The notes under the pieces are model-generated. The model was not told the origin of the DNA and ran no database searches. It was given only the letters and a program-made list of their open reading frames with translations. A stretch of 24,522 bases of DNA from positions 1 through 24,522 of the IMG/VR virus record IMGVR_UViG_3300042893_000388; one strand, written 5' to 3'. The translations under genes were made by a program, and so were the position numbers. The number at the start of each line of letters is the position of its first letter. Within the stretch, counting starts at the first letter, position 1. Shown piece after piece: positions 3,379-24,307 of this stretch. The stretch comes from a virus.

Positions 3379-3663
3379 TTAGATGGTGTTTATGCTTGGC
3401 AGTACTAGGCTGAAGTAGCTGGCCTCGCTGGCGAGTTCAAAAGCCACTAATAAATTTCGATCAATGGGCTTGCCGCCCGGAGTGCGGGCTACGTCTATGT
3501 TGCCTACATAGAACCGCCCTTCAAGATTTTCGTAAAGCCAATCTGTGATTTGTTTTTCTGTAGCGTAGGGCTCAAACATGACCTGCTCAAAATGAGGTGG
3601 GCAATGATTGACACGTCTTAGTTGATGAACATTTAAAAGATTAACTTCGCCACGTTTAAGCAT
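3379..3663 (-). CDS. Conserved hypothetical protein (94 aa) coupled to the VWA gene
   Basis: A soluble 94-residue protein with a PPHFEQVMFEP segment near residues 22-32 and a hydrophobic C terminus. It reads like a small one-domain phage protein, but I cannot assign a family. Its ATG overlaps the last 8 nt of the VWA/metallopeptidase gene in another frame, so it is probably translated with the MoxR-VWA pair. Function unknown; a link with that pair is inferred only from position. Confidence 0.8.
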   Translation of the reverse strand: MLKRGEVNLLNVHQLRRVNHCPPHFEQVMFEPYATEKQITDWLYENLEGRFYVGNIDVARTPGGKPIDRNLLVAFELASEASYFSLVLPSINTI

Positions 3664-4942
3664 GTTCTTTGCTTAGTTCATAGTAGGTAGTAATACCAAA
3701 TGGTGCTTCGATACTAGTTGACCCGTGGATAACAAACATAGTATCGCAGTAGTCTGGTTCACCCCACGATCCAAATGGGTAACCATCTGTGAACATGATA
3801 AACTTCTTAGGTTGGATATCGTTCTCACGCATCCACTTCCAATTGGCTTCAAAGTCTGTGCCACCACCACCCAAAGGTTCCCAATCCATGATCTCATCTA
3901 GGTTATCTGCTGTAAATACCTTGGCACCTTCTGGGTATACATCAGTATCAAATGACCATAAGTGTAAGCGGAAACTCTGATAACTTTCCATGATACCTTT
4001 GACTTCACTAAGGATATCTTTAAGCATGGTATCTGACATACTACCCGATGTATCAATGGCTACACAAATGTCAATCTCTTTGTCCCAATCACTACCTGGC
4101 ATGATAGCATCCATGTCCCACCCTTTACGGCTAGCTCTAGCCCAAGTATAATCTGTACGTAAGGTGCTTTGGATCTGTTGTTGCAATAGAGCACGCCAAT
4201 CTAACTGCGGTGCTGTTAGATCCTTGATCATACGCTTAACACCACTAGGTAAATTACCAGCACCAGCAGTTTGGGCGGCAGTCATTACAGCCTCTTTGAT
4301 CTCATCACGGATCTGTTTACGTTCTTCTTCACTTAGTTTAGGGCGACCTTTACCTTCTTTCTTTTCATCACCCTCTTCACCTTCTCCACCTTCACCGTCG
4401 CCGTCTAGGTGTTCGTCTAATAGTTGGTCCATCAGATCGTCAATGTCGATTTTATCTGCATTCTTGTATAAGTCATCATAGACTTCTTCAGCTGACCAGC
4501 CACGATATTTTGGCTCATATAACCCAACTGGAATCTTTTCACCAATACGTTGATCTAATAAGTCTTGATTTACACAATAATCATCAGCGATGTTCCATAG
4601 TTGGGGATCACGTTCACCACGACGACCCATATGGTCATAAACACAGTGTAGGACCTCATGCCCCATAAGGAATTCCAATTGTTTGGCTGGCATTTTCTTA
4701 AGGAATTCACTGTTATAGTAGAACTTACGTCCGTCAGTTGCGGCGGTTGGACACCAATCGTCAGCATTAATTAATTGTAATCTAGTAGCCAAATTACCAA
4801 AGAAAGGTGCTTTGAGCAATAAGGCGATACGGGCAGTTACTAGTTTTTCACGAACTAGAGCATCTACATCGGGTTTAGTTTTTATGCCCACATAGTTTTT
4901 GGCTTTGGTAGTTGTAGTACCTTTTGAGTTTGGTTTTGCCAT
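3656..4942 (-). CDS. VWA domain protein with metallopeptidase-like N-terminal domain (MoxR partner)
   Basis: A two-domain protein of 428 residues. The N-terminal domain (about 25-165) carries H95-E-V-L-H99, the HExxH zinc motif of the VWA-like predicted metallopeptidase family (DUF2201-type N terminus). A very acidic Gly/Glu/Lys linker at about 180-205 follows. The C-terminal VWA domain (about 287-415) has the MIDAS motif D297-T-S299-G-S301, GGGGTDF near 358-364 and FTDG near 384-387. The gene follows the MoxR ATPase with a 1-nt TAATG overlap. MoxR and VWA proteins commonly work as pairs in which the ATPase remodels or loads metal or cofactors into targets. The phage target is not known; proteolysis is a family-based guess. 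Confidence 0.9.
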   Translation of the reverse strand: MAKPNSKGTTTTKAKNYVGIKTKPDVDALVREKLVTARIALLLKAPFFGNLATRLQLINADDWCPTAATDGRKFYYNSEFLKKMPAKQLEFLMGHEVLHCVYDHMGRRGERDPQLWNIADDYCVNQDLLDQRIGEKIPVGLYEPKYRGWSAEEVYDDLYKNADKIDIDDLMDQLLDEHLDGDGEGGEGEEGDEKKEGKGRPKLSEEERKQIRDEIKEAVMTAAQTAGAGNLPSGVKRMIKDLTAPQLDWRALLQQQIQSTLRTDYTWARASRKGWDMDAIMPGSDWDKEIDICVAIDTSGSMSDTMLKDILSEVKGIMESYQSFRLHLWSFDTDVYPEGAKVFTADNLDEIMDWEPLGGGGTDFEANWKWMRENDIQPKKFIMFTDGYPFGSWGEPDYCDTMFVIHGSTSIEAPFGITTYYELSKEHA

Positions 4943-6039
4943 TAAGCTACTGCCTGAACGATATACTTACCAAAACGTTTATGGAATTCATCAAATGTTT
5001 TAAGTTTGTTAGGAACAAACGGTAAGTTATAGACGGTTAGTGCAACTCTAGCACCCATGACAGTGAGTTCTGTAGTAAAGTTCTCCATCATAAACTTGAA
5101 GAAGTTATCTACTTTCTCATGCCATTGGTCCTGATTGATACTGTCTTTCTTGTTAGTGTTAATGTCTTTAAGTTCATAGCACATAGACACAGTTAAAGAA
5201 TACATAGCTGAGATTTCTTTGATTTTAAGTTCTCGAACTTTACCATCAAGGATTTCTCTAGGGTCAGGCATTTGGCCAGCTATTTTTCTATGCGCCATGA
5301 ATTTTACTGCGGTACCTTCGCCAACTGTGCCTGCTACCAAGTCTGTTTCGACACTGGTTGGTAGATTATCTTCTAACAGTTGACTTACGAAAGTCCACGA
5401 ACGAGGTGTTGCGAAAGCACGTGATGCTGTTTTAGGATCAAAGTCAAACAAGTCCTGTTTAGCGAACGACACGTAACCTACAACGTCTTTATGAATATTG
5501 TTGAGCACTGCCCATTTTTGCCAAGCGTCAAAGTCTGGGCGCATTTCCAAATGGACGAAACGATTTGACAACGGACTAGGCATCTTAAACGTAACGCCCT
5601 TGTCACCTTCACGATTACCAGCGGCAACCATAACCACATTGTCTGGAAGACGATACTTACCAACACGACGATTAAGAATCAGCTGATAAGCCGCCGCTTG
5701 TACGCTAGGCGCCGCTGAATTCATCTCATCAAAGAATAATACGACGACTGGATACTGACTAGTAAGTTCTTCACTTGGTAAGTCGATTGGAGGTGCCCAA
5801 TCCATCAAGCCTAAATCTTTATTGTAAAAAGGAATACCACGGATATCTGTTGGATCCATCTGTCCAAGGCGCAAGTCGATCATGTAGCCACCCATTTCTT
5901 CGGTGATAGTTTCTACTAGTTCTGACTTACCAATACCCGGAGGACCCCAAAGAAAAACTGGACGTTTTTTATTGAAACATTGAACGAGTGCTACGCGAGC
6001 TTCTTCACTGGTTACGGTACGATTTTCTGTAACTGCCAT
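4942..6039 (-). CDS. MoxR-type AAA+ ATPase
   Basis: A 365-residue AAA+ ATPase of the MoxR group. Visible motifs are Walker A GPPGIGKS at 32-39, Walker B VVVLFFDEMN ending in D104-E105, sensor-1 N142 in AAGNREGD, and the SNR arginine finger at 158-160. The DLRLGQMDPTDIRGIP block (55-70) is typical of MoxR/RavA-like proteins. It likely powers conformational change on a client together with the VWA protein encoded immediately downstream. A weak AAAGGG precedes the ATG at 6039. A consensus promoter starts transcription about 30 nt upstream, so the MoxR-VWA pair and the small gene after it probably form one unit. Confidence 0.95.
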   Translation of the reverse strand: MAVTENRTVTSEEARVALVQCFNKKRPVFLWGPPGIGKSELVETITEEMGGYMIDLRLGQMDPTDIRGIPFYNKDLGLMDWAPPIDLPSEELTSQYPVVVLFFDEMNSAAPSVQAAAYQLILNRRVGKYRLPDNVVMVAAGNREGDKGVTFKMPSPLSNRFVHLEMRPDFDAWQKWAVLNNIHKDVVGYVSFAKQDLFDFDPKTASRAFATPRSWTFVSQLLEDNLPTSVETDLVAGTVGEGTAVKFMAHRKIAGQMPDPREILDGKVRELKIKEISAMYSLTVSMCYELKDINTNKKDSINQDQWHEKVDNFFKFMMENFTTELTVMGARVALTVYNLPFVPNKLKTFDEFHKRFGKYIVQAVA

Positions 6040-8717: not shown

Positions 8718-8748
8718 CAGAGTTGAGATTATTCATAATAAAACTCTG
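8718..8748 (-). terminator. Hairpin spanning the stop codon of the nuclease-helicase gene
   Basis: CAGAGTT (8718-8724) pairs with AACTCTG (8742-8748), with an inner ATTAT/ATAAT inverted repeat, so a two-step stem surrounds the TAA stop at 8729-8731. A short run of Ts follows on the minus strand. It could terminate or insulate this transcript from the next promoter. Part of the stem is coding sequence. Confidence 0.45.
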
Positions 8749-11700
8749 TCGGTTTCTTTTTCATCCAAGAGCCAAATGTAGTAACATCTACCTTATACGC
8801 TTTGGCAGCTTCCTTTTGTGTTGAAAATTTACCTATATGAGTTACAATTATCCTGCCTTTATTTGTGGTTGATGCTACGGGTTTTTTTGGACCAGTATTA
8901 GTATAATAATATAGATGCCCCTCTCTTAACATCATTCTTTCAAAAACAGCTGGTGTAACTCTATGTGCTTCTGCAGCTAATTTTCTACTTGAAAATATTC
9001 CTTTTGGGGTTGTAACGGATTTAGCAGTGCCAACAAGGTATTTTTTCCTATTTTTAACTGTTTGTTGTCTTGAGATTACTTTAAAATAGTTGGATATATC
9101 TTTAAGTTGTTTACGTCTGAGATTATTCGCACAATATCCTTTATTTGTGATAATACCATTAATTCTAGATTGTTGTATCACAAACTGATCTAACTCAACT
9201 ACATTTTTAAAATTTCTATAATTTAATTGGTATAGTTCAATTAACTTATCTTTATTTTTTTGTTGCGTTATCTCTAATCCTTTTATTTTTTTGTTTAATG
9301 CACTTACTTTACGCACTTCTAATTTATATTTTTCTGCTATGGGCAATGCTGTGGCATATAAACTAATAGCATTAATGTGCGGGACTTTTTTAATTTCTTT
9401 TTCAAATTCTTTTAAAACAAGATCACTAAATTTATCTGCATAAGATTTTAATTTCTTTAGTGCTTTGCTAATTGCTTGATTAAATTTAGGATCGGTGTAA
9501 CGGCCTCTCTTATTGTATGCCGCCTGTAATCCTCGTTTTGAAATTTTACCCCCATTAGAATTTACATATTTGCTACATAAATCATTAAACAATGTTAGAT
9601 ATTGTTTTTCTTTACAGTATAAGATACTGTTATTTTCAATAGTAGTGGGATCAAATGTCTCAGCAAATTCGATGATAAGATTGTCTGTAGTAACATATTG
9701 ATTGTTTCTATCTTTGTTAAACTGCTTCCATTTTTTTCTAGCTTCTATTTTTAATTTTGTAGGCAGTAAAAAATGTCTCCCAAGTCTAATATGAGCAATA
9801 GCTCTTCTACATCTGTCTGGACTAGAATACTGGGAAAAAAACTCTTTGTATTTTTCTTTGTTGGCTATAGAATCATGAAATTCTTTCATAGCGAATTGAT
9901 TGCCATATGTTATATTATAAAATTCTAAACTATCTTGGTATATTTCCTCAACAATTGATCGATGAGGATTAAAGTTTCCGTGTTGTAGGAATCCTTTAAA
10001 TGCATTTACTAATCCACCTTCTAATTCCCAAACAGGTCGGGTATATTTACTACCTTTCGTTCGACCACCACCTGGCACTGATTGATTAGTATGATCAAAA
10101 AATGTAATACTATCATCAATATTATCTCCAAGTTCTAGTGCTTCTGCTACCTGATTAATAAGAGTAAATGCCCTTTTAACTTCAAATTGATTTGTCGAAT
10201 CAACAATAATAGTTTCAATGACATTTAATTCGTCAAACCCGCCACCTAGTCTTTGTCCTCTACCAATGGTTTGAGAAATACGTATTTTGCTTCCACTGTT
10301 ATCAACGAAACTTATAGTATCAACCCACCCATCTTTTGGATCCCATCCTTCAGATAATTTTTTAACTTGACATACAGTTGCACCTTTTGGATTATTGGTT
10401 GGAATTCCGTCAACTAATCTTTGAATCTTATTATGTGAAGTTCCATTACTATAGATATCAATGAATGGTATCGCTAGCAATCGTCGAATCTCTGGGTTAC
10501 GAGAATCTCCGTATTGTTTTACAATTTCCGGCCACGCATGCTCTGTAAATTGTATGAATTTTTTTACTCTCTCATGAGAGTTTAAATTAAACATAGGAAA
10601 TTTTCTTTTGGGGTAGTCGAGTAAGTATCGGGCTAACGCATCTAATTTAAAAATCCACTCTTGTGGAGCCGCCACCCCATTGATTGTAACAATAGCAGAT
10701 TTTTTATCATGGACCGCACCTTGAATTTCTACAGGAAGATCATTAACATCATATACATTAACGATTAATTTGGTTTTTCTTTTCCACCCTCGAGCAGTGA
10801 CATCACCTTCTTGCCATTCTACCGGAGCAAATTGAGACGGTTTAGTTAAGTTCCTCCAAAGATTAGAATTACGCATACTTGTAGGAACTTGTAATCCATT
10901 TTCGTCTGCACCCTCTAAAATGTTAGCATCAGCACCTACTCTAATAGTCCAAGCACCGTATTGGTTAAAAACACATTTGGCCCAATCACTATCTTCAGAC
11001 TGAACAGTATGTTTGACTTCATCAATATACATGAAATCGCCGACGATGTTTTCAGCAATCATTATTTCGCCTAATAGTTTGTAACTATGAATAGTTGTTT
11101 CGATGTGAAGATGGTAATTCTTAGATGCCCAATCGAGCATAATATCTATCAATAAATTTTCTCTAGTAATTACTTCAGAATATTTTTTAACCCTGTTTAG
11201 TTCGTCTTTATCTTCAATACCTTTTTTAACATCTCCAGCGAGAACTATCACACGTGTCTTTGCTCCTCTGGCGTTAATATCTTTTACTTCCTTAATAAGG
11301 TTACCTGATAAAACAGTCAAACTTGGATTGACTTTAACTGTAAGCATTGATTCTTTATTAAAGAATTTTTCTAAGAAAAATTTCCAAAGTAAAATAGGAT
11401 CGGTACCTTTACCTGCCGCAGTGGGTTTAATGGATAACACTCTGGCTACTCCGTCATGCCCAATTTGGGCAACTATTTCGTCAAATAAATCTTTGATACT
11501 TTGCTCATGGAAGTCTGTGTTACCTGGGATTAAAAGTAAATCTTCTCTATATCCTGCAGGTTTAAGTTTTTCTTTTTTAGTCGGCGTTAATACATAACTA
11601 CGGATTCTATCATAAATTTCTTCGTTATATATGTCCTCGCCAAAAATATAGGTCCAATTATCAAGATATTCTTCAATGGCACTACTTACACGAGATAAGT

Positions 11701-12076
11701 TAGTAACAAGAACTCGATTTTTAATATTCGTCTTATTGAGAGCTACTTCTTTAACAGAAAGTTTATCTAGTTTAATACTTGAATCGTCATGTTGATATTT
11801 TACCTCAACAGCAGTACCTTCCATGCATTCGGTGAACCAATCAGCACCTTTTGATGTAGCGCCTGACAATAAATGACCGATATTCCATTTTTCAATAAGA
11901 GATGCAGGAATTTGATCGTGATTTGGAGAATAAACACTAGAACCATAAAAATCGTCAGTTTTGAGAAATAGACCTACTAAATCTTCAAATTCTTTTTCTT
12001 TTTGTTTTGGGGTTAACTTCTCCTCTGCTATAAGATATGAATGCAGATTCTTGTGTTTTTTTACTAGTGCTGTCAT
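8729..12076 (-). CDS. Restriction-type nuclease fused to SF2 helicase, with repeated C-terminal motifs
   Basis: A 1115-residue protein. The N terminus (about 25-125) has a PD-(D/E)xK/Mrr-like nuclease signature: E32, GAD at 77-79 and EVK at 91-93. An SF2 helicase follows: a degenerate Walker A PTAAGKGT (218-225, an extra residue in the loop), Walker B Y-I-DEVK around D352-E353, LSEGWD at 574-579 and QTIGRGQR at 602-609. This order resembles type III/ISP restriction subunits. The C terminus (about 1023-1115) has two copies of a short IENR1/NUMOD1-like helix-turn-helix motif. The gene has its own promoter and is much more AT- and Lys-rich than its neighbours, which suggests acquisition. No methylase is nearby. 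The helicase assignment is firm; the target and biological role (defence, competitor attack or mobile DNA) are not. Confidence 0.85.
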   Translation of the reverse strand: MTALVKKHKNLHSYLIAEEKLTPKQKEKEFEDLVGLFLKTDDFYGSSVYSPNHDQIPASLIEKWNIGHLLSGATSKGADWFTECMEGTAVEVKYQHDDSSIKLDKLSVKEVALNKTNIKNRVLVTNLSRVSSAIEEYLDNWTYIFGEDIYNEEIYDRIRSYVLTPTKKEKLKPAGYREDLLLIPGNTDFHEQSIKDLFDEIVAQIGHDGVARVLSIKPTAAGKGTDPILLWKFFLEKFFNKESMLTVKVNPSLTVLSGNLIKEVKDINARGAKTRVIVLAGDVKKGIEDKDELNRVKKYSEVITRENLLIDIMLDWASKNYHLHIETTIHSYKLLGEIMIAENIVGDFMYIDEVKHTVQSEDSDWAKCVFNQYGAWTIRVGADANILEGADENGLQVPTSMRNSNLWRNLTKPSQFAPVEWQEGDVTARGWKRKTKLIVNVYDVNDLPVEIQGAVHDKKSAIVTINGVAAPQEWIFKLDALARYLLDYPKRKFPMFNLNSHERVKKFIQFTEHAWPEIVKQYGDSRNPEIRRLLAIPFIDIYSNGTSHNKIQRLVDGIPTNNPKGATVCQVKKLSEGWDPKDGWVDTISFVDNSGSKIRISQTIGRGQRLGGGFDELNVIETIIVDSTNQFEVKRAFTLINQVAEALELGDNIDDSITFFDHTNQSVPGGGRTKGSKYTRPVWELEGGLVNAFKGFLQHGNFNPHRSIVEEIYQDSLEFYNITYGNQFAMKEFHDSIANKEKYKEFFSQYSSPDRCRRAIAHIRLGRHFLLPTKLKIEARKKWKQFNKDRNNQYVTTDNLIIEFAETFDPTTIENNSILYCKEKQYLTLFNDLCSKYVNSNGGKISKRGLQAAYNKRGRYTDPKFNQAISKALKKLKSYADKFSDLVLKEFEKEIKKVPHINAISLYATALPIAEKYKLEVRKVSALNKKIKGLEITQQKNKDKLIELYQLNYRNFKNVVELDQFVIQQSRINGIITNKGYCANNLRRKQLKDISNYFKVISRQQTVKNRKKYLVGTAKSVTTPKGIFSSRKLAAEAHRVTPAVFERMMLREGHLYYYTNTGPKKPVASTTNKGRIIVTHIGKFSTQKEAAKAYKVDVTTFGSWMKKKPTEFYYE
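8732..9010 (-). repeat. Two tandem C-terminal motif copies within the nuclease-helicase
   Basis: Residues 1023-1059 and 1079-1115 repeat the pattern G-x-FS-(S/T)-x-K-x-A-A-x-A-(H/Y)-x-V-(T/D), ending in an aromatic cluster (LYYYT and FYYE). The pattern resembles the short DNA-binding modules found in homing endonucleases and their relatives. The copies are diverged, so they are an old duplication rather than a slipped repeat. Confidence 0.6.
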
Positions 12077-17381: not shown

Positions 17382-18488
17382 CTAATCCTTGAATAAATCC
17401 ACGGCTTCCCATGGTAAATCTGCTTTACCAAAGTGTCCATAGTTGGTTGTTTGGCTGTATATAGGGCGGAACAGCTCAAATTTATTTATGATGCCTGCTG
17501 GTGTAAGATCAATATTTCCACGTATCCAACTAGTAATAGTATTATCAAACTCAATGCCTCGGTCAGTCTTAACAAACAAACTAGTGGGCTCTTTGACACC
17601 AATAGCATAGCTGATCTGTACAGTAGCTTTGTGTGCACCTTTGGTAGCTACAATGTTCTTAGCTAAGTATCTAGCCATATAAGCCGCACTACGATCTACC
17701 TTAGTAGGATCCTTACCTGAGAAAGCACCGCCACCGTGTGGACTATAACCACCATAGGTATCTACAATAATCTTACGTCCTGTTAGACCGGTGTCGCCAT
17801 CTGGACCACCAATAACAAATCTGCCAGTTGGGTTAATCAAGTATTCTGTATTGGTATCAATTAGATTGTCTGGTAGAACTGTGTCAATAATAGTCTTAAC
17901 TTGTTCACGTACATCTTCAATAGCTATCTCAGTTAAGTGTTGTGTTGAACATACCACCTTAGCAATACGACGCACACTACCACCATCATTGTATTCCATA
18001 GTTACCTGTGACTTAGCATCTGGACCTAACCATACTGCTCCACTCTTACGCACAGCAGTTAATCGTTTAACAATCAAATGACTGTAGTAAATAGCACTAG
18101 GCATCAGATCTGGGGTTTCATTAATAGCATACCCAAACATTAAGCCTTGGTCACCAGCGCCAAATGTGTCTGTACCTAGGGCGATGTCTGCACTTTGTCC
18201 ATGCATCAAGTTAGTGATCTTCGCAGTTTCCCAATGGAATCCATCTTGCTCATATCCAATGTCACGGATGACACGACGCACAGCATTTTCAACTTCTTGA
18301 TGATTATAGATACCTTTGTATTCGCCAGCTATGATGACCTGATTAGTTGTTACTAGTGTTTCGCAGGCACAACGATAGGCCTGATTGCCTTCTCGCATCA
18401 TTAAATCTAACACAGCATCACTGATAGCATCTGCTACTTTATCTGGATGTCCTTCACTGACACTTTCACTGGTAAACAAATAACTCAT
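17382..18488 (-). CDS. metK: S-adenosylmethionine synthetase MetK
   Basis: Makes SAM from methionine and ATP. In 368 residues the family motifs are in order: FTSESVSEGHPDK (5-17), GAGDQGLMFGYA near 113-124, the GGGAFSGKD loop near 255-263, then DRSAAYMARYLAKN, and a C-terminal DLPWE. E. coli MetK has 384 residues, so this looks complete. I start at 18488, where the ATG overlaps the upstream stop as TAATG and the protein begins as bacterial MetK does; the ATG at 18497 would add three residues. A phage-borne metK is uncommon. SAM would serve the radical SAM QueE and any methyltransferase; that use is inference. Confidence 0.95.
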   Translation of the reverse strand: MSYLFTSESVSEGHPDKVADAISDAVLDLMMREGNQAYRCACETLVTTNQVIIAGEYKGIYNHQEVENAVRRVIRDIGYEQDGFHWETAKITNLMHGQSADIALGTDTFGAGDQGLMFGYAINETPDLMPSAIYYSHLIVKRLTAVRKSGAVWLGPDAKSQVTMEYNDGGSVRRIAKVVCSTQHLTEIAIEDVREQVKTIIDTVLPDNLIDTNTEYLINPTGRFVIGGPDGDTGLTGRKIIVDTYGGYSPHGGGAFSGKDPTKVDRSAAYMARYLAKNIVATKGAHKATVQISYAIGVKEPTSLFVKTDRGIEFDNTITSWIRGNIDLTPAGIINKFELFRPIYSQTTNYGHFGKADLPWEAVDLFKD

Positions 18489-18751
18489 TAAATCCATCCC
18501 CCAGCTCTAGCAATACCAACTAATCCAACTATGATCCAAAATCCATTTAATAAAGTATAAGCTGGGTCTTTTCTGACGCTTGCACAATAGGTTAATAGAA
18601 TAGCATCAATGGTATTAAAGATCCATACAAACATAAACGGACTATGAGGACCTAACCACGATACTAAACTGAAACTGATAATGCGCATGATAACTCCTAA
18701 CATTTCCATTTGCGGAATATGTGAGTCGATATAATCTAATATTTTATTCAT
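18488..18751 (-). CDS. Small membrane protein (87 aa)
   Basis: Two or three hydrophobic stretches (about 22-42, 46-62 and 69-83) with Lys/Arg between them, so a small polytopic inner-membrane protein. No catalytic motif is seen. I start at the ATG at 18751, which has GGAG 6 nt upstream; the frame also runs further upstream but overlaps the previous gene. It ends as TAATG against metK. It is similar in character to the membrane protein at 20739-20978, but I see no clear sequence identity. Function unknown. Confidence 0.75.
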   Translation of the reverse strand: MNKILDYIDSHIPQMEMLGVIMRIISFSLVSWLGPHSPFMFVWIFNTIDAILLTYCASVRKDPAYTLLNGFWIIVGLVGIARAGGWI

Positions 18752-19893: not shown

Positions 19894-20742
19894 TTATTTT
19901 CCCCAACTATTGCCCCAAAGATCAACATGTAACCTTGGGCTGTAATAATAACCACGACGCATGGCTTCATCGGCTACATTAAATTTATTACCATCGTAAA
20001 CTTTAACCACACCGCCTACTGGCATAATGTATATAACACCTTTGAACTTGACCTTCCTGTATTCTGATACTGCACGATCTACTTCGTCAAAATCATTGGG
20101 TTTTTCAACAACAAATTTAAGATACGTAGTACCGACCTTTTCATAGCTACGAACAATCTCAGGTTTGATAGCATCAGCCCACTTTTCACCTGATGCACTT
20201 AATTTGGCACTTACGCTAAATGTAATCTCTCTACTACCACGATTCCAAAGTTTTAAATATTTGGCAAAGTCTTCATGTAGTTCCTGGGTACCATTTGTTT
20301 CAAATGTTAAGTTCTTTAGATTATACATGTCTGGATGACTTAATAATTCACTGTAAGCACGTTGCCAACCCAGCAATGGCTCGCCACCTGTGATAACCAA
20401 ATGTGTATCATTACCATTAGGCATAGTCCAACTGTTACTAGGAACCAGTGCTAACATCTTTTCAACTACAGTACTAGTCTCATATGTTGGACTAAGATGT
20501 TTGAATCTAGGATCCCATGAAGCATAACTATCACAACCAGTATTTACTAGTGGAAGGTCTTCATAGCGATCATATAACTCTACCTTGACTTGATCACGTT
20601 CAGTTGAGCAAGTACCTCTAGGCATACCAAACCCACCACAGGTAAAATTACAGCCAAAGGTCCTTAAGAATACACTAGGTACGCCAATAAAGCGACCTTC
20701 ACCTTGTGCTGAATAGAATATTTCACTTACTTTTAATTTCAT
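19894..20742 (-). CDS. queE: QueE-like radical SAM 7-carboxy-7-deazaguanine synthase
   Basis: Radical SAM enzyme that converts 6-carboxy-tetrahydropterin (the QueD product) to 7-carboxy-7-deazaguanine. Residues 1-30 (EIFYSAQGEGRFIGVPSVFLRTFG) are the QueE substrate and loop region. Cluster cysteines would be C31 and C35 (C-x3-C) and C70 in GCDSYASWD, which matches the usual third Cys followed by D-T/S. GGEP (119-122) is the SAM-binding signature. Instead of the usual two residues, 34 separate C35 from C70, with an extra C45 in the insert. The gene starts as ATGA overlap with a small membrane protein. QueE function is well supported; the unusual cluster loop is a real feature of the sequence. 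Confidence 0.9.
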   Translation of the reverse strand: MKLKVSEIFYSAQGEGRFIGVPSVFLRTFGCNFTCGGFGMPRGTCSTERDQVKVELYDRYEDLPLVNTGCDSYASWDPRFKHLSPTYETSTVVEKMLALVPSNSWTMPNGNDTHLVITGGEPLLGWQRAYSELLSHPDMYNLKNLTFETNGTQELHEDFAKYLKLWNRGSREITFSVSAKLSASGEKWADAIKPEIVRSYEKVGTTYLKFVVEKPNDFDEVDRAVSEYRKVKFKGVIYIMPVGGVVKVYDGNKFNVADEAMRRGYYYSPRLHVDLWGNSWGK

Positions 20743-20978
20743 CTAATTAACCCATAAAGATATATGAATAATATTATGGCATTCAATGACCATAACTCTG
20801 GTTTACGCCATAGTAGTCCTGTCAGCACCCAAAATACACAAGCCAATGATAATATGGCAATGTTGAGCGGATACACATCGAGACTAGTGAATACAACACC
20901 AACAACGGTAATGATATTGGCCAACCATCCTATTAGTTTACTATTATTTTTGAAAAATTGCAAGATTATCTTTCCCAT
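20739..20978 (-). CDS. Small membrane protein (79 aa)
   Basis: Three hydrophobic stretches (about 12-30, 36-53 and 60-77) suggest a small multi-span inner-membrane protein; the central region includes W-V-L-T-G-L-L-W. The ATG at 20978 lies 13 nt inside the upstream phosphoribosyltransferase gene; a TTG at 20993 would add five residues. No ribosome-binding site is strong, so coupling to the previous gene is likely. It ends as ATGA against queE. Function unknown; transport of a metabolite is only a guess. Confidence 0.75.
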   Translation of the reverse strand: MGKIILQFFKNNSKLIGWLANIITVVGVVFTSLDVYPLNIAILSLACVFWVLTGLLWRKPELWSLNAIILFIYLYGLIR

Positions 20979-21511
20979 GGATAAACTATCCAAACATCTT
21001 CTTCAGCTTTGTTTATCTCTACAGCATTGTAGTCAACCTTGCGGCTAAACTTGCTAGACAAGTTATCAAATAACACAGCAAAGCGAACATTGTTGCCCCA
21101 GACGTCCGCCCAGGCTGGATCATTTGGCAAACAGCCACTAGGCCAATCTTTGATGATCCAATCTAGTGTAGCACCAGTATCATTGATATCATCTAAGATC
21201 AAGATGTTTTTACGTAGTGCTGGGTCACTAGTTGATTCACCTACCGGACGAGGAACTGTGCTAGCATCTATATAACCAAACGCATCTTCAGCCATCCAAC
21301 CGTTGCTTTCTCCACCTGTACCATCACGTAGGGCTACTTTTAATGTTTCCATTGGGATATCTAATGTATGACTCATATACACAGCAGGGATTAATCCACC
21401 TCTGGTTAGTCCCACGATATAGTCTGGGCGCCAATCGTCCTTATACATTTTAAAACTGATTTGATTCACATATTCTTGAATCTGTTGATCACTAACATAT
21501 AATTTTTTCAT
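20966..21511 (-). CDS. Phosphoribosyltransferase (purine/Gpt-like)
   Basis: A 181-residue type I phosphoribosyltransferase. The PRPP loop ILILDDINDTGAT occupies residues 103-115 (the DD is followed by a T-G-A/T). An N-terminal GLTRGGLIPA (34-43) resembles the PPi loop, and the C terminus (VDYNAVEINKAEEDVWIVYPWE) resembles the Gpt/Xgpt base-binding tail. It would make purine nucleotides from a free base and PRPP. The base cannot be told; a deazaguanine salvage role is possible from the neighbours (QueE, QueD, FolE) but unproven. The ATG at 21511 follows the upstream stop by 2 nt. Confidence 0.86.
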   Translation of the reverse strand: MKKLYVSDQQIQEYVNQISFKMYKDDWRPDYIVGLTRGGLIPAVYMSHTLDIPMETLKVALRDGTGGESNGWMAEDAFGYIDASTVPRPVGESTSDPALRKNILILDDINDTGATLDWIIKDWPSGCLPNDPAWADVWGNNVRFAVLFDNLSSKFSRKVDYNAVEINKAEEDVWIVYPWER

Positions 21512-21513
21512 TA

Positions 21514-21843
21514 CTATCCCTTATAGGCTCTGATACTACTAATTTTACCTGCGTCATTGAATTTAATAACGTCAACAACACTCAAATGTACAGTACCACT
21601 GACTACTATGCTTAGTTCTGCAGCCACAGTATTAGTATCTCGATACAGATGCAGTGGCATTACATGGATATATTCAACACTATCAAATATCTTTTTGTTA
21701 GCGGTTAATACTTCATCAATACCATTAGCACTGATTTCCCAATCACGTAGTGTCACATCACCAGTAAACATCAACGCAAGGCCGTCTAGGTCTCTGCGTG
21801 AGAATGTTTCGAAATATTCTAAACAAATTGATTTTAAATCCAT
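21514..21843 (-). CDS. NTF2-like / SnoaL-like fold protein (109 aa)
   Basis: The sequence reads as a cone-shaped alpha/beta NTF2-like fold: helix DLKSICLEYFETFSRRDLDGL, then MFTGDVTLRDWEISANGIDEVL (22-45) and a C-terminal sheet (AAELSIVVSGTVHLSVVDVIKFND, GKISSIRAYKG) typical of SnoaL/KSI families. These bind small molecules or act as isomerases or hydrolases; the ligand is unknown. I start at the ATG at 21843 with AAGGA 8 nt upstream, just past the stop of the autotransporter gene. The domain call is by pattern only. Confidence 0.72.
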   Translation of the reverse strand: MDLKSICLEYFETFSRRDLDGLALMFTGDVTLRDWEISANGIDEVLTANKKIFDSVEYIHVMPLHLYRDTNTVAAELSIVVSGTVHLSVVDVIKFNDAGKISSIRAYKG

Positions 21844-21844
21844 C

Positions 21845-24307
21845 TTAGAATTCCTTGTTAAGAGCAAAACCAAATAGTTGATTGGTCATGCCCGCTTGAT
21901 TGAGATAGTTTGTTTGGTGTTCACCATAAGTAATCAAGTTTAAGTTTTTAGTTTTATACTTGTAATACACTCCCATATCATACTGCATTGCAGTTGGAGT
22001 AATGCTTACACGGCTACGATCATATGCTATTTCACCGTTAGCAGTCCAACCAATTGGCACGCTAACATCAACAGTACCTTTACTCACAGTAACTGGTTGG
22101 CTTACTGTAGCACCAAAACTGTGTTTTTCTTTAGTATAATCTACGCCCATGTTCCAACTATATGTCTGTGTAGCACCCACATTGGTGATCAATCCACTAG
22201 TCTGTAAGTTGGCCTGTGTATAACCTACCCAAGCACTACCAAATAAGCTCAAGTTTTTATTTAAGTTATATGCACCAGTAAAGTTCATGAACTGTGTATA
22301 ACTACCATTGACTTCACCCATCATACCTGAGATCTGATTGCCCATCCAAGCATTGCGTTCATTCAACATGCCAAAGCCCACACGGTAGTTTGCCTTGTCA
22401 TTGAACTTAGTGGTATACCCTGATTCAACTAGTCCTGTTTGGGTAAACTCATTCATTGACATCCTAACATCATACTGCCCTAGAGCAACTTTACCACCAT
22501 TGGTGTAGTAGTTTAACTTATTATAAGGATTGTAGTCTTCGTAAAAGTTTGCTTTACTTATAGGATTAAAAGTACCTGTAGCTCGTTTAGCATTGGCGGT
22601 TGATGCCATGTTAACATAATAATCACGACCAAACTCATCTGTCACCATTACTGAACTTAGTGCACCAACTGACGCTAATCCACCTGACGTGCTAGTTGAG
22701 AAGCCACCACCAAGTGCGACTTTTCTACCAGTTGTAGGAATACCTACTACACCATATGGACGAGTCGCTTTTTCTAAATCTAATAGGCCTGCACCCATTA
22801 CATCTTTATCATAATTTACTAGATCTTTATTAGCGGTAGCTGTTAAAAGTTTAACGATATTGCTACCAGTCATCTGTGGCCATTGTTGATGGATAATAGC
22901 TACAGCACCCGAAACCACTGCAGCCGCTTCACTAGTGCCTGTTGAACTAGTATACACATCACCAGTTTTACCAGCAGAGAATGCATTACCTGGTGCTAGG
23001 ATATAAAAGTCACTCATGCGATATGTGTCATTACAAGTACCAGCAACAATATTAAATCCTTGACACAAGTGTCCAGCTTTATTACTGTAACTAGCGATAC
23101 TATTGGTATTAATATCATATGCTCCAACTACTAACATTTGGCCATTTAAGTATAATGTTCCATCTGGACGAGTAGCATAGGCCATTGGTGCGGGGTTCTG
23201 TGGATATCTCAATCCACTATTACCAGCTGAGTTAACGATAACCATTTCACTTGAGCCCAATGCTTCAGCCCAGGCTTTTGGGTCTTCATTGTTATAAAAT
23301 CCAGTTGCACGCTTACCAGTGTAATAGTTTGTCTTATACGCGGCACTGCTGTTAGCCCAAGATCCATCGTTCAGTTGATAAAAAGTTTTTCTAGACGCAT
23401 TATCATATACACTGTTAGCACTGATATTAGCTACATCTGCGCCAATAGTAACACCCCAAGCTATGGCCTGACGAGCTTGGCTAAAGCCATAAGAGGTAGT
23501 ATCAGTGACCTTGGCGATAGCTAACATTGCATCTGGTGCTACACCAGCCACCCCAACGCCATCCCAATTAGCAGCAGCGATACTGGCCATTCTAGTACCG
23601 TGACCAACGTTATCATTGATTCCAAATTTAGATCTAACGAAGTCTTTAGTATCAGTGATACTATTTAAAAACTCACTGTGTTTGGCATTTATACCACTGT
23701 CGATGATCAAAATCTTAGACCCTAACCCAGTATACCCTCTGCTCCACGCTGAACTAGCGTTAACTACACGTAGATAGTCATCATTGGAGTTACCGGCACT
23801 GATTCCGTTTGCAGTATATTCTGCTGTAGCATACGGTGACAGGTTAATCCCTGGACTAGTTGGCGCCGTCGTAGTGACTACAGGAGTAGTTGCTACGAGC
23901 GTGGCTGGTGGAGTAGTTACTGTCGGTACCGGACCATATACAATAGCTATTTGTCTTGCTTGTTCTGCTAGTATTGCCGAGCGATCTGCCTCCGCTTTTG
24001 CCGCTACGACCGCTTTTGCGTCTGCTACTTCTTTTACGGCAATTTCTGCAGGAGTTAATGCCGGAGTAGTTACAACAACCGGTGTATTCACAACTGCCGG
24101 AGTAGTTGACCCATTAAGCGGTTTACCATAAACTATTTGATATTGTCTTGCCTGTTCAGCTAGTATTGCAGCCCTGGCTGCATCTGCTCTGGCTGTTGCA
24201 GCCGCTTTAGCCTGTACAACTTCTTCTGCTGGTGTTAGGGCAACTGCCTGATGACTGATCAACGATCCTGCTAGTGTTAATCCTAATAATATTTTTCTAA
24301 GTTTCAT
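21845..24307 (-). CDS. Phage-encoded subtilase (S8) autotransporter, outer-membrane protease
   Basis: An 820-residue secreted serine protease. A signal peptide (about 1-23, K/R then hydrophobic, cleavage after AVA) starts it; the ATG at 24307 follows a purine-rich RBS. Two diverged Ala/Thr/Pro-rich 60-residue repeats (24-83, 84-148) follow, then an S8 subtilase domain (about 175-510) with D203 (IIDSG), H236 (GHGT), oxyanion N363 (AGNSG) and S459 (GTS). The Cys pair C415/C425 could be a disulphide. A linker precedes a C-terminal beta-barrel (about 600-820) with alternating aromatic strands and a terminal Phe, as in outer-membrane proteins. It acts at the host surface. This is not a usual phage gene. 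Its job (receptor or surface protein trimming, superinfection exclusion or release) is inference. Confidence 0.9.
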   Translation of the reverse strand: MKLRKILLGLTLAGSLISHQAVALTPAEEVVQAKAAATARADAARAAILAEQARQYQIVYGKPLNGSTTPAVVNTPVVVTTPALTPAEIAVKEVADAKAVVAAKAEADRSAILAEQARQIAIVYGPVPTVTTPPATLVATTPVVTTTAPTSPGINLSPYATAEYTANGISAGNSNDDYLRVVNASSAWSRGYTGLGSKILIIDSGINAKHSEFLNSITDTKDFVRSKFGINDNVGHGTRMASIAAANWDGVGVAGVAPDAMLAIAKVTDTTSYGFSQARQAIAWGVTIGADVANISANSVYDNASRKTFYQLNDGSWANSSAAYKTNYYTGKRATGFYNNEDPKAWAEALGSSEMVIVNSAGNSGLRYPQNPAPMAYATRPDGTLYLNGQMLVVGAYDINTNSIASYSNKAGHLCQGFNIVAGTCNDTYRMSDFYILAPGNAFSAGKTGDVYTSSTGTSEAAAVVSGAVAIIHQQWPQMTGSNIVKLLTATANKDLVNYDKDVMGAGLLDLEKATRPYGVVGIPTTGRKVALGGGFSTSTSGGLASVGALSSVMVTDEFGRDYYVNMASTANAKRATGTFNPISKANFYEDYNPYNKLNYYTNGGKVALGQYDVRMSMNEFTQTGLVESGYTTKFNDKANYRVGFGMLNERNAWMGNQISGMMGEVNGSYTQFMNFTGAYNLNKNLSLFGSAWVGYTQANLQTSGLITNVGATQTYSWNMGVDYTKEKHSFGATVSQPVTVSKGTVDVSVPIGWTANGEIAYDRSRVSITPTAMQYDMGVYYKYKTKNLNLITYGEHQTNYLNQAGMTNQLFGFALNKEF
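23864..24238 (-). repeat. Two Ala/Thr/Pro-rich repeats in the autotransporter passenger
   Basis: Residues 24-83 and 84-148 both begin LTPAE and share AILAEQARQ followed by IVYG (47-61 and 111-125), followed by Thr/Pro/Val-rich linkers. The copies are diverged with a four-residue offset. The first half of each looks helical or coiled coil, the second half a flexible stalk. Confidence 0.75.

Follow-up and report, generated by a model that had tools for sequence, protein, structure and literature searches.

A phage-encoded subtilase with a predicted outer-membrane-type barrel: a candidate autotransporter-like protease of large T4-like phages

Results

A phage gene combines a signal-like N-terminus, an S8 domain and a predicted C-terminal barrel

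The DNA analysed here, referred to as the window, is the whole 24,522-nucleotide stretch of IMG/VR virus record IMGVR_UViG_3300042893_000388. It encodes an 820-residue subtilisin-like protease that probably works like an autotransporter, through a translocator-like barrel whose family has not been catalogued (Table 1). As expected from the original prediction, a signal peptide, the S8 triad D203/H236/S459 and a C-terminal barrel-like domain were all present in the predicted protein, as judged by the reading frame, Pfam and the structure model, with the signal peptide read by eye. The coding part of the gene occupies 24307..21848 on the minus strand and the stop codon occupies 21847-21845. The N-terminus, MKLRKILLGLTLAGSLISHQAVA/LTP, resembles by eye a Sec signal peptide and contains an AxA site, and the N-termini of the complete phage relatives are signal-like by the same judgement.

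Table 1. Features of the protease and of its neighbours in the window (positions are those of the window)
Feature	Position	Strand	Basis
folE 3' end (GTP cyclohydrolase I), immediately upstream of the protease, truncated by the contig edge	24318..24521	-	PF01227 (GTP_cyclohydroI), E 1.4e-11
Phage S8-barrel protease, coding sequence, 820 aa	24307..21845	-	open frame; end-to-end relatives in viral contigs and one bacterial chromosome
Predicted signal peptide, residues 1-23, MKLRKILLGLTLAGSLISHQAVA	24239..24307	-	n/h/c regions and AxA, read by eye
Variable spacer, residues 24-184	23756..24238	-	two helical repeats rich in Ala, with Thr/Pro-rich connecting stretches
Subtilase S8 domain, about residues 185-512; D203, H236, N363, S459	22772..23755	-	Pfam, conserved sites, Foldseek
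Linker, residues 513-600; predicted helices 582-591 and 594-597 directly ahead of the first strand of the barrel	22508..22771	-	structure model
Predicted C-terminal beta-barrel, residues 601-820, 12-13 predicted strands, terminal Phe	21848..22507	-	structure model, strand polarity, homology to barrels of bacterial S8 proteins
SnoaL/NTF2-like gene, overlapping the protease end	21514..21873	-	PF12680, E 6.4e-10
Phosphoribosyltransferase	20966..21511	-	PF00156, E 1.2e-11
queE-like radical SAM enzyme	19894..20742	-	top NCBIfam matches are QueE models, below cut-off

The region between the signal peptide and the S8 domain was variable in length. Among the phages, L011 (6888-8300) and L030 included, the length ahead of the S8 motif ranged from 41 to 468 residues, and the long Ala/Glu/Leu-rich helical repeats were seen in the lineage of the window only. 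The spacer may act as a stalk or as a propeptide. The spacer helices of the window protein were modelled with low confidence. In one phage copy (L017, 1-1362), a tandem duplication takes in the linker together with the last part of the S8 domain.

The S8 domain keeps its active site

Peptidase_S8 (PF00082) matched residues 196-507 with an E-value of 1.1e-29 and a score of 104.1 bits against a cut-off of 21.8, and all 28 family members in the aligned set matched the same model. D203 lies in IIDSGI, H236 in GHGT and S459 in GTSEA; N363 is the oxyanion Asn. The sites were then counted in the 43 distinct sequences that are 440 residues or longer, each sequence being counted only where it covers the site. 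The catalytic residues, whose retention in phage relatives had been proposed as a check, were present in every distinct relative that covers them (Asp, 40/40; His, 40/40; oxyanion Asn, 42/42; Ser, 43/43).

Among eight near relatives, the dN/dS ratio of spacer residues 24-160 was 0.24, against 0.10, 0.11 and 0.09 in the S8 domain, the linker and the barrel, respectively. By these ratios, the S8 domain and the barrel are under strong purifying selection. An inactive pseudo-protease was also considered; it was ruled out by the conserved catalytic sites together with the low dN/dS.

Foldseek comparison of the structure model recovered the subtilisin fold with a TM-score of 0.85-0.89 on the target, and the passenger structure of the Serratia autotransporter Ssp (8e7f) was among the matches. 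When the protein was compared with a library of defence systems, the resemblance was confined to the S8 domain.

The C-terminal domain is modelled as a barrel outside PF03797

Residues 150-820 were modelled by AlphaFold2 from 41 sequences, with a pLDDT of 83 and a pTM of 0.70; this model superseded an earlier one, made from 13 sequences, whose pLDDT was 54. It consists in order of a subtilisin fold, two helices and a barrel-like sheet of 12-13 strands in the C-terminal ~220 residues. Structural modelling of the barrel region, which had been suggested as a further check, thus returned the strands together with a preceding helix. The side chains of the strands alternate in polarity beyond shuffles (p 0.0016), the last residue of the window protein is Phe, and an aromatic residue stands at or beside the C-terminus in almost all complete relatives among the 43 distinct sequences. 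The C-terminal domain appears to be an outer-membrane-type barrel, with 12-13 strands as predicted.

The barrel could not be placed in a known family. No Pfam model matched it in the 28 members, and PF03797 gave no match in them at E<=1. Furthermore, hhalign of the barrel against 17 PF03797 barrels gave probabilities of 1.1-3.1%, that is, no detectable kinship. Filing the protein as a PF03797 member was consequently rejected. The label "autotransporter" stood in part: the predicted anatomy (signal, S8 domain, helix and barrel) fits it, but membership of PF03797 was supported neither by Pfam nor by hhalign. Since the barrel lies outside PF03797, the secretion route is proposed by analogy.

In a search of the barrel sequence against solved structures, FapF was the only hit, and it was not significant (E 0.84). 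The Foldseek matches of the model in the PDB were dominated by subtilisins. In a library of viral structures, the best match was A0A6J5TBB6, full-length, with a TM-score of 0.73; porin-annotated phage proteins aligned to the model as well (E 6e-4 to 9e-4), and phage proteins annotated as autotransporter beta-domains were also among the matches. An outer-membrane barrel in a phage gene had been called unexpected. The S8-barrel gene is real, but the porin and beta-domain annotations are precedents for such barrels in phages.

The protease belongs to large T4-like phages

Relatives were found on 58 further viral contigs of IMG/VR, some of which possibly represent the same phage sampled twice. The scan with the window protein as query gave 27 loci and the scan with the alignment as query gave 50. 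Among the contigs are ones of 335, 200, 164 and 115 kb. Of eight contigs tested, six carry a major capsid gene of T4 type (Gp23) and four a terminase; DNA polymerase B was found on four of five tested. The window itself contains no recognised virion gene, but its gene order is common to L011, whose contig carries Gp23. The large T4-like phages that carry this protease family are known from metagenomes only, and the phage lineages of the family are 34-39% identical to each other.

Since the gene is close to one end of the window contig, it could be recent cargo, or the product of a chimeric assembly, with no function for the phage. This reading has next to no probability. Relatives lie on 58 contigs besides the window, of up to 335 kb, and independent contigs keep the same flanks within each lineage, which excludes a chimera or an edge artefact; the low dN/dS is against it as well. 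The suspicion of a chimera, raised along with the original prediction as a way in which it might fail, was therefore dispelled; signal-like N-termini are also kept in the complete relatives, and the triad in all distinct ones that cover the sites.

Two other parts of the window were recorded. At 3656-6039, a MoxR-type ATPase is followed by a protein resembling a VWA-domain partner; the ATPase is nearest to those of PA5oct-like jumbo phages of Pseudomonas (49%), which is not a host assignment. At 8729-12076, a 1115-residue protein had no Pfam or PHROGs match, and parts of it read like a helicase.

The protease gene lies among metabolic and replication genes

The metabolic operon described for this locus was largely recovered, with folE, the NTF2-like gene and the phosphoribosyltransferase matched by Pfam and queE identified through NCBIfam matches below cut-off. 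In L009, folE is complete and stands at the same place relative to the protease, and the SnoaL/NTF2-like gene is the next downstream gene in 21 loci. A phage S-adenosylmethionine synthetase gene (metK, above the NCBIfam cut-off) lies at 17382-18497 of the window, beside queuosine-pathway genes. Three gene orders were distinguished. Group 1, that of the window, has folE before the protease and the NTF2-like gene after it; group 2 has c5 or c55 before it and mostly c30 after it; group 3 has c19 or c48 before it and c26 after it. The c5 gene (358-399 aa), located just upstream of the protease in L009 (3416-4489), in L056 (6778-7881) and in 23 other loci of two lineages, resembles glycosyltransferases weakly (PF00534, E 0.0035). 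A surface module of protease and glycosyltransferase is conceivable.

The setting with folE, the phosphoribosyltransferase gene, queE and metK would suit an auxiliary metabolic gene for nutrient acquisition, whose displayed product digests dissolved or neighbouring protein so that the peptides feed the infected cell. However, the lineage of L037 and L023 carries the protease without the metabolic neighbours of the window, and no peptide importer was noted adjoining the protease; we consider nutrient acquisition quite unlikely.

In the loci read, the protease was set among nucleotide, queuosine, exonuclease and DNA polymerase B genes, and not among virion genes. Proteases take part in the head maturation of phages, and S8 proteases are present in other phages, so that a virion or prohead maturation protease that merely resembles an exported protein was weighed too. 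It is very improbable, given that the signal-like N-terminus and the barrel are kept in the complete relatives and that the gene lies outside the recognised virion gene blocks.

Upstream of the protease, a sigma-70-like promoter was found at a similar position in most group 2 loci. The match was perfect in L024, 11/12 in L053 and 10/12 in eight more, these being related sequences and not independent cases. No consistent T4-type late promoter motif was found upstream of the protease. In the lineage of the window, no promoter of the protease's own was seen, the gene directly following folE. Inside the operon of the window, two perfect and one near-perfect sigma-70 matches lie on the coding strand (12141-12113, 14747-14719 and 16358-16330, minus strand); the total number of such matches was not above that in shuffles. 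The group 2 promoters suggest early or middle expression by the host RNA polymerase.

Timing bears on another reading, in which the outer-membrane-anchored protease is a release or lysis factor that acts late on envelope or receptor material, aiding lysis or freeing progeny from debris. A predicted outer-membrane anchor and a fold of broad specificity would fit such a role. Nevertheless, we regard it as unlikely, since the gene stands among metabolic and replication genes, sigma-70-like promoters precede it in one lineage, and no recognised virion or lysis genes were seen nearby in the loci read.

Bacterial S8 proteins carry a homologous barrel

A genome scan with a single protein as query gave no match. 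Nevertheless, a chromosomal alphaproteobacterial protein, L158, located on a 2.75-Mb contig, matched the phage protein end to end (residues 154-816, 35% identity, E 1e-99). This identity is about equal to that between the phage lineages. In the tree, L158 stands beside the window lineage on a long branch, with support of 93/86, a placement compatible with a single or a double capture by phages. Taken alone, the barrel is homologous to those of bacterial S8 proteins, with 99.6% in hhalign and hmmsearch E-values as low as 1e-31. Six chromosomal alphaproteobacterial S8-barrel proteins (L158, L159, L161, L162, L165 and L166) have both an S8 domain and a barrel homologous to those of the phage protein, and share with it the barrel motif SQPxxV..P and the linker motif, which reads ATRPxGxVGIPTTG in L158. 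The signal region of L158 contains a lipobox-like Cys, which the window protein lacks. Like the phage barrels, those of the bacterial relatives had no PF03797 match, with the exception of L061, which carries a PF03797 barrel.

The separate searches of passenger and barrel that had been recommended gave a divided answer. The barrel matched bacterial S8 proteins, but among the isolated phages of INPHARED only the S8 domain was matched, and the barrel matched no phage record there. The end-to-end match to L158 indicates that the phages encode an entire S8-barrel protein of bacteria. Most simply, judging from these alignments, the phage gene would be a bacterial protein taken whole, with the direction of transfer as we infer it.

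Discussion

We propose that ancestors of large T4-like phages captured a bacterial S8-barrel protease whole, presumably in that direction. The protease would be synthesised during early or middle infection and exported by Sec through the predicted signal peptide, and the BAM machinery of the host would insert its barrel into the outer membrane. The subtilase passenger, if oriented outwards, would be displayed outside the cell, where it may cleave host surface proteins. For an enzyme on the surface at that stage of infection, the simplest task would be the cutting of surface proteins; such shaving, phage receptors included, could limit superinfection and the re-adsorption of progeny to doomed cells and debris. 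Among the purposes that can be imagined, this is the one we favour. Taken as a whole, from capture through Sec/BAM export and display to the shaving that limits re-adsorption or superinfection, the proposal stands in our judgement about evenly between right and wrong. That an early, outer-membrane-anchored protease serves a widespread T4-like phage group as superinfection exclusion by surface shaving, with an uncatalogued family of translocator barrels, is a possibility that we advance tentatively.

A displayed protease might instead protect the infected cell by cleaving external attackers (tail proteins of other phages, bacteriocins or predator proteins) and not the cell's own proteins. Surface subtilases are known to act on the cell surface and, once released, on outside targets as well (PMC9289746). 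However, nothing specific in the sequence points to protection, the target not being readable from it, and we hold this decidedly unlikely.

If the protease is displayed and active, phages would be altering the exterior of the cells they infect with an enzyme of their own, beyond binding or blocking proteins. Display and activity would also amount to a new mechanism of superinfection exclusion or of progeny release, and would give a name to a family of translocator-like barrels common to phages and Alphaproteobacteria that is missed by current domain libraries. Since the libraries miss it, proteins of this kind currently carry no annotation beyond "S8 peptidase". No description of a phage subtilase autotransporter was found in the literature searched, which included few subscription papers and no preprints.

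Compared with known phage proteins, the S8 domain is about 30% identical to those of the subtilisins of the Bacillus phages Goe3, BSP14 and FADO; the match ends at the S8 domain, and the hosts of these phages are Gram-positive. A deposited protein, A0A6J5TBB6 ("Peptidase S8/S53 domain containing protein", uncultured Caudovirales phage), matched in structure over its full length with 29% identity. At 689 residues it is shorter than the window protein, and it is annotated by its S8 domain only; it is apparently a member of the same family that has already been deposited.

The subtilisin-like type Va autotransporters NalP, SphB1, AasP, EprS and Serratia Ssp make up Group 15 of a published classification and process surface proteins (PMC9289746), and a helix preceding the barrel has been described for type V translocators (PMC9289746, PMC3297439). 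The phage protein has the same order of parts, namely a putative signal peptide, an N-terminal S8 domain, a predicted helix, a predicted C-terminal barrel and a terminal Phe, and the NCBIfam model of EprS matches its S8 part. It differs from Group 15 in three respects. The ~200-residue beta-helix of these proteins (PMC9289746) is replaced by a linker of about 85 residues; the barrel of type Va autotransporters is PF03797, whereas the phage barrel has no detectable relation to that family; and, unlike the members of Group 15, the protease is encoded by phages.
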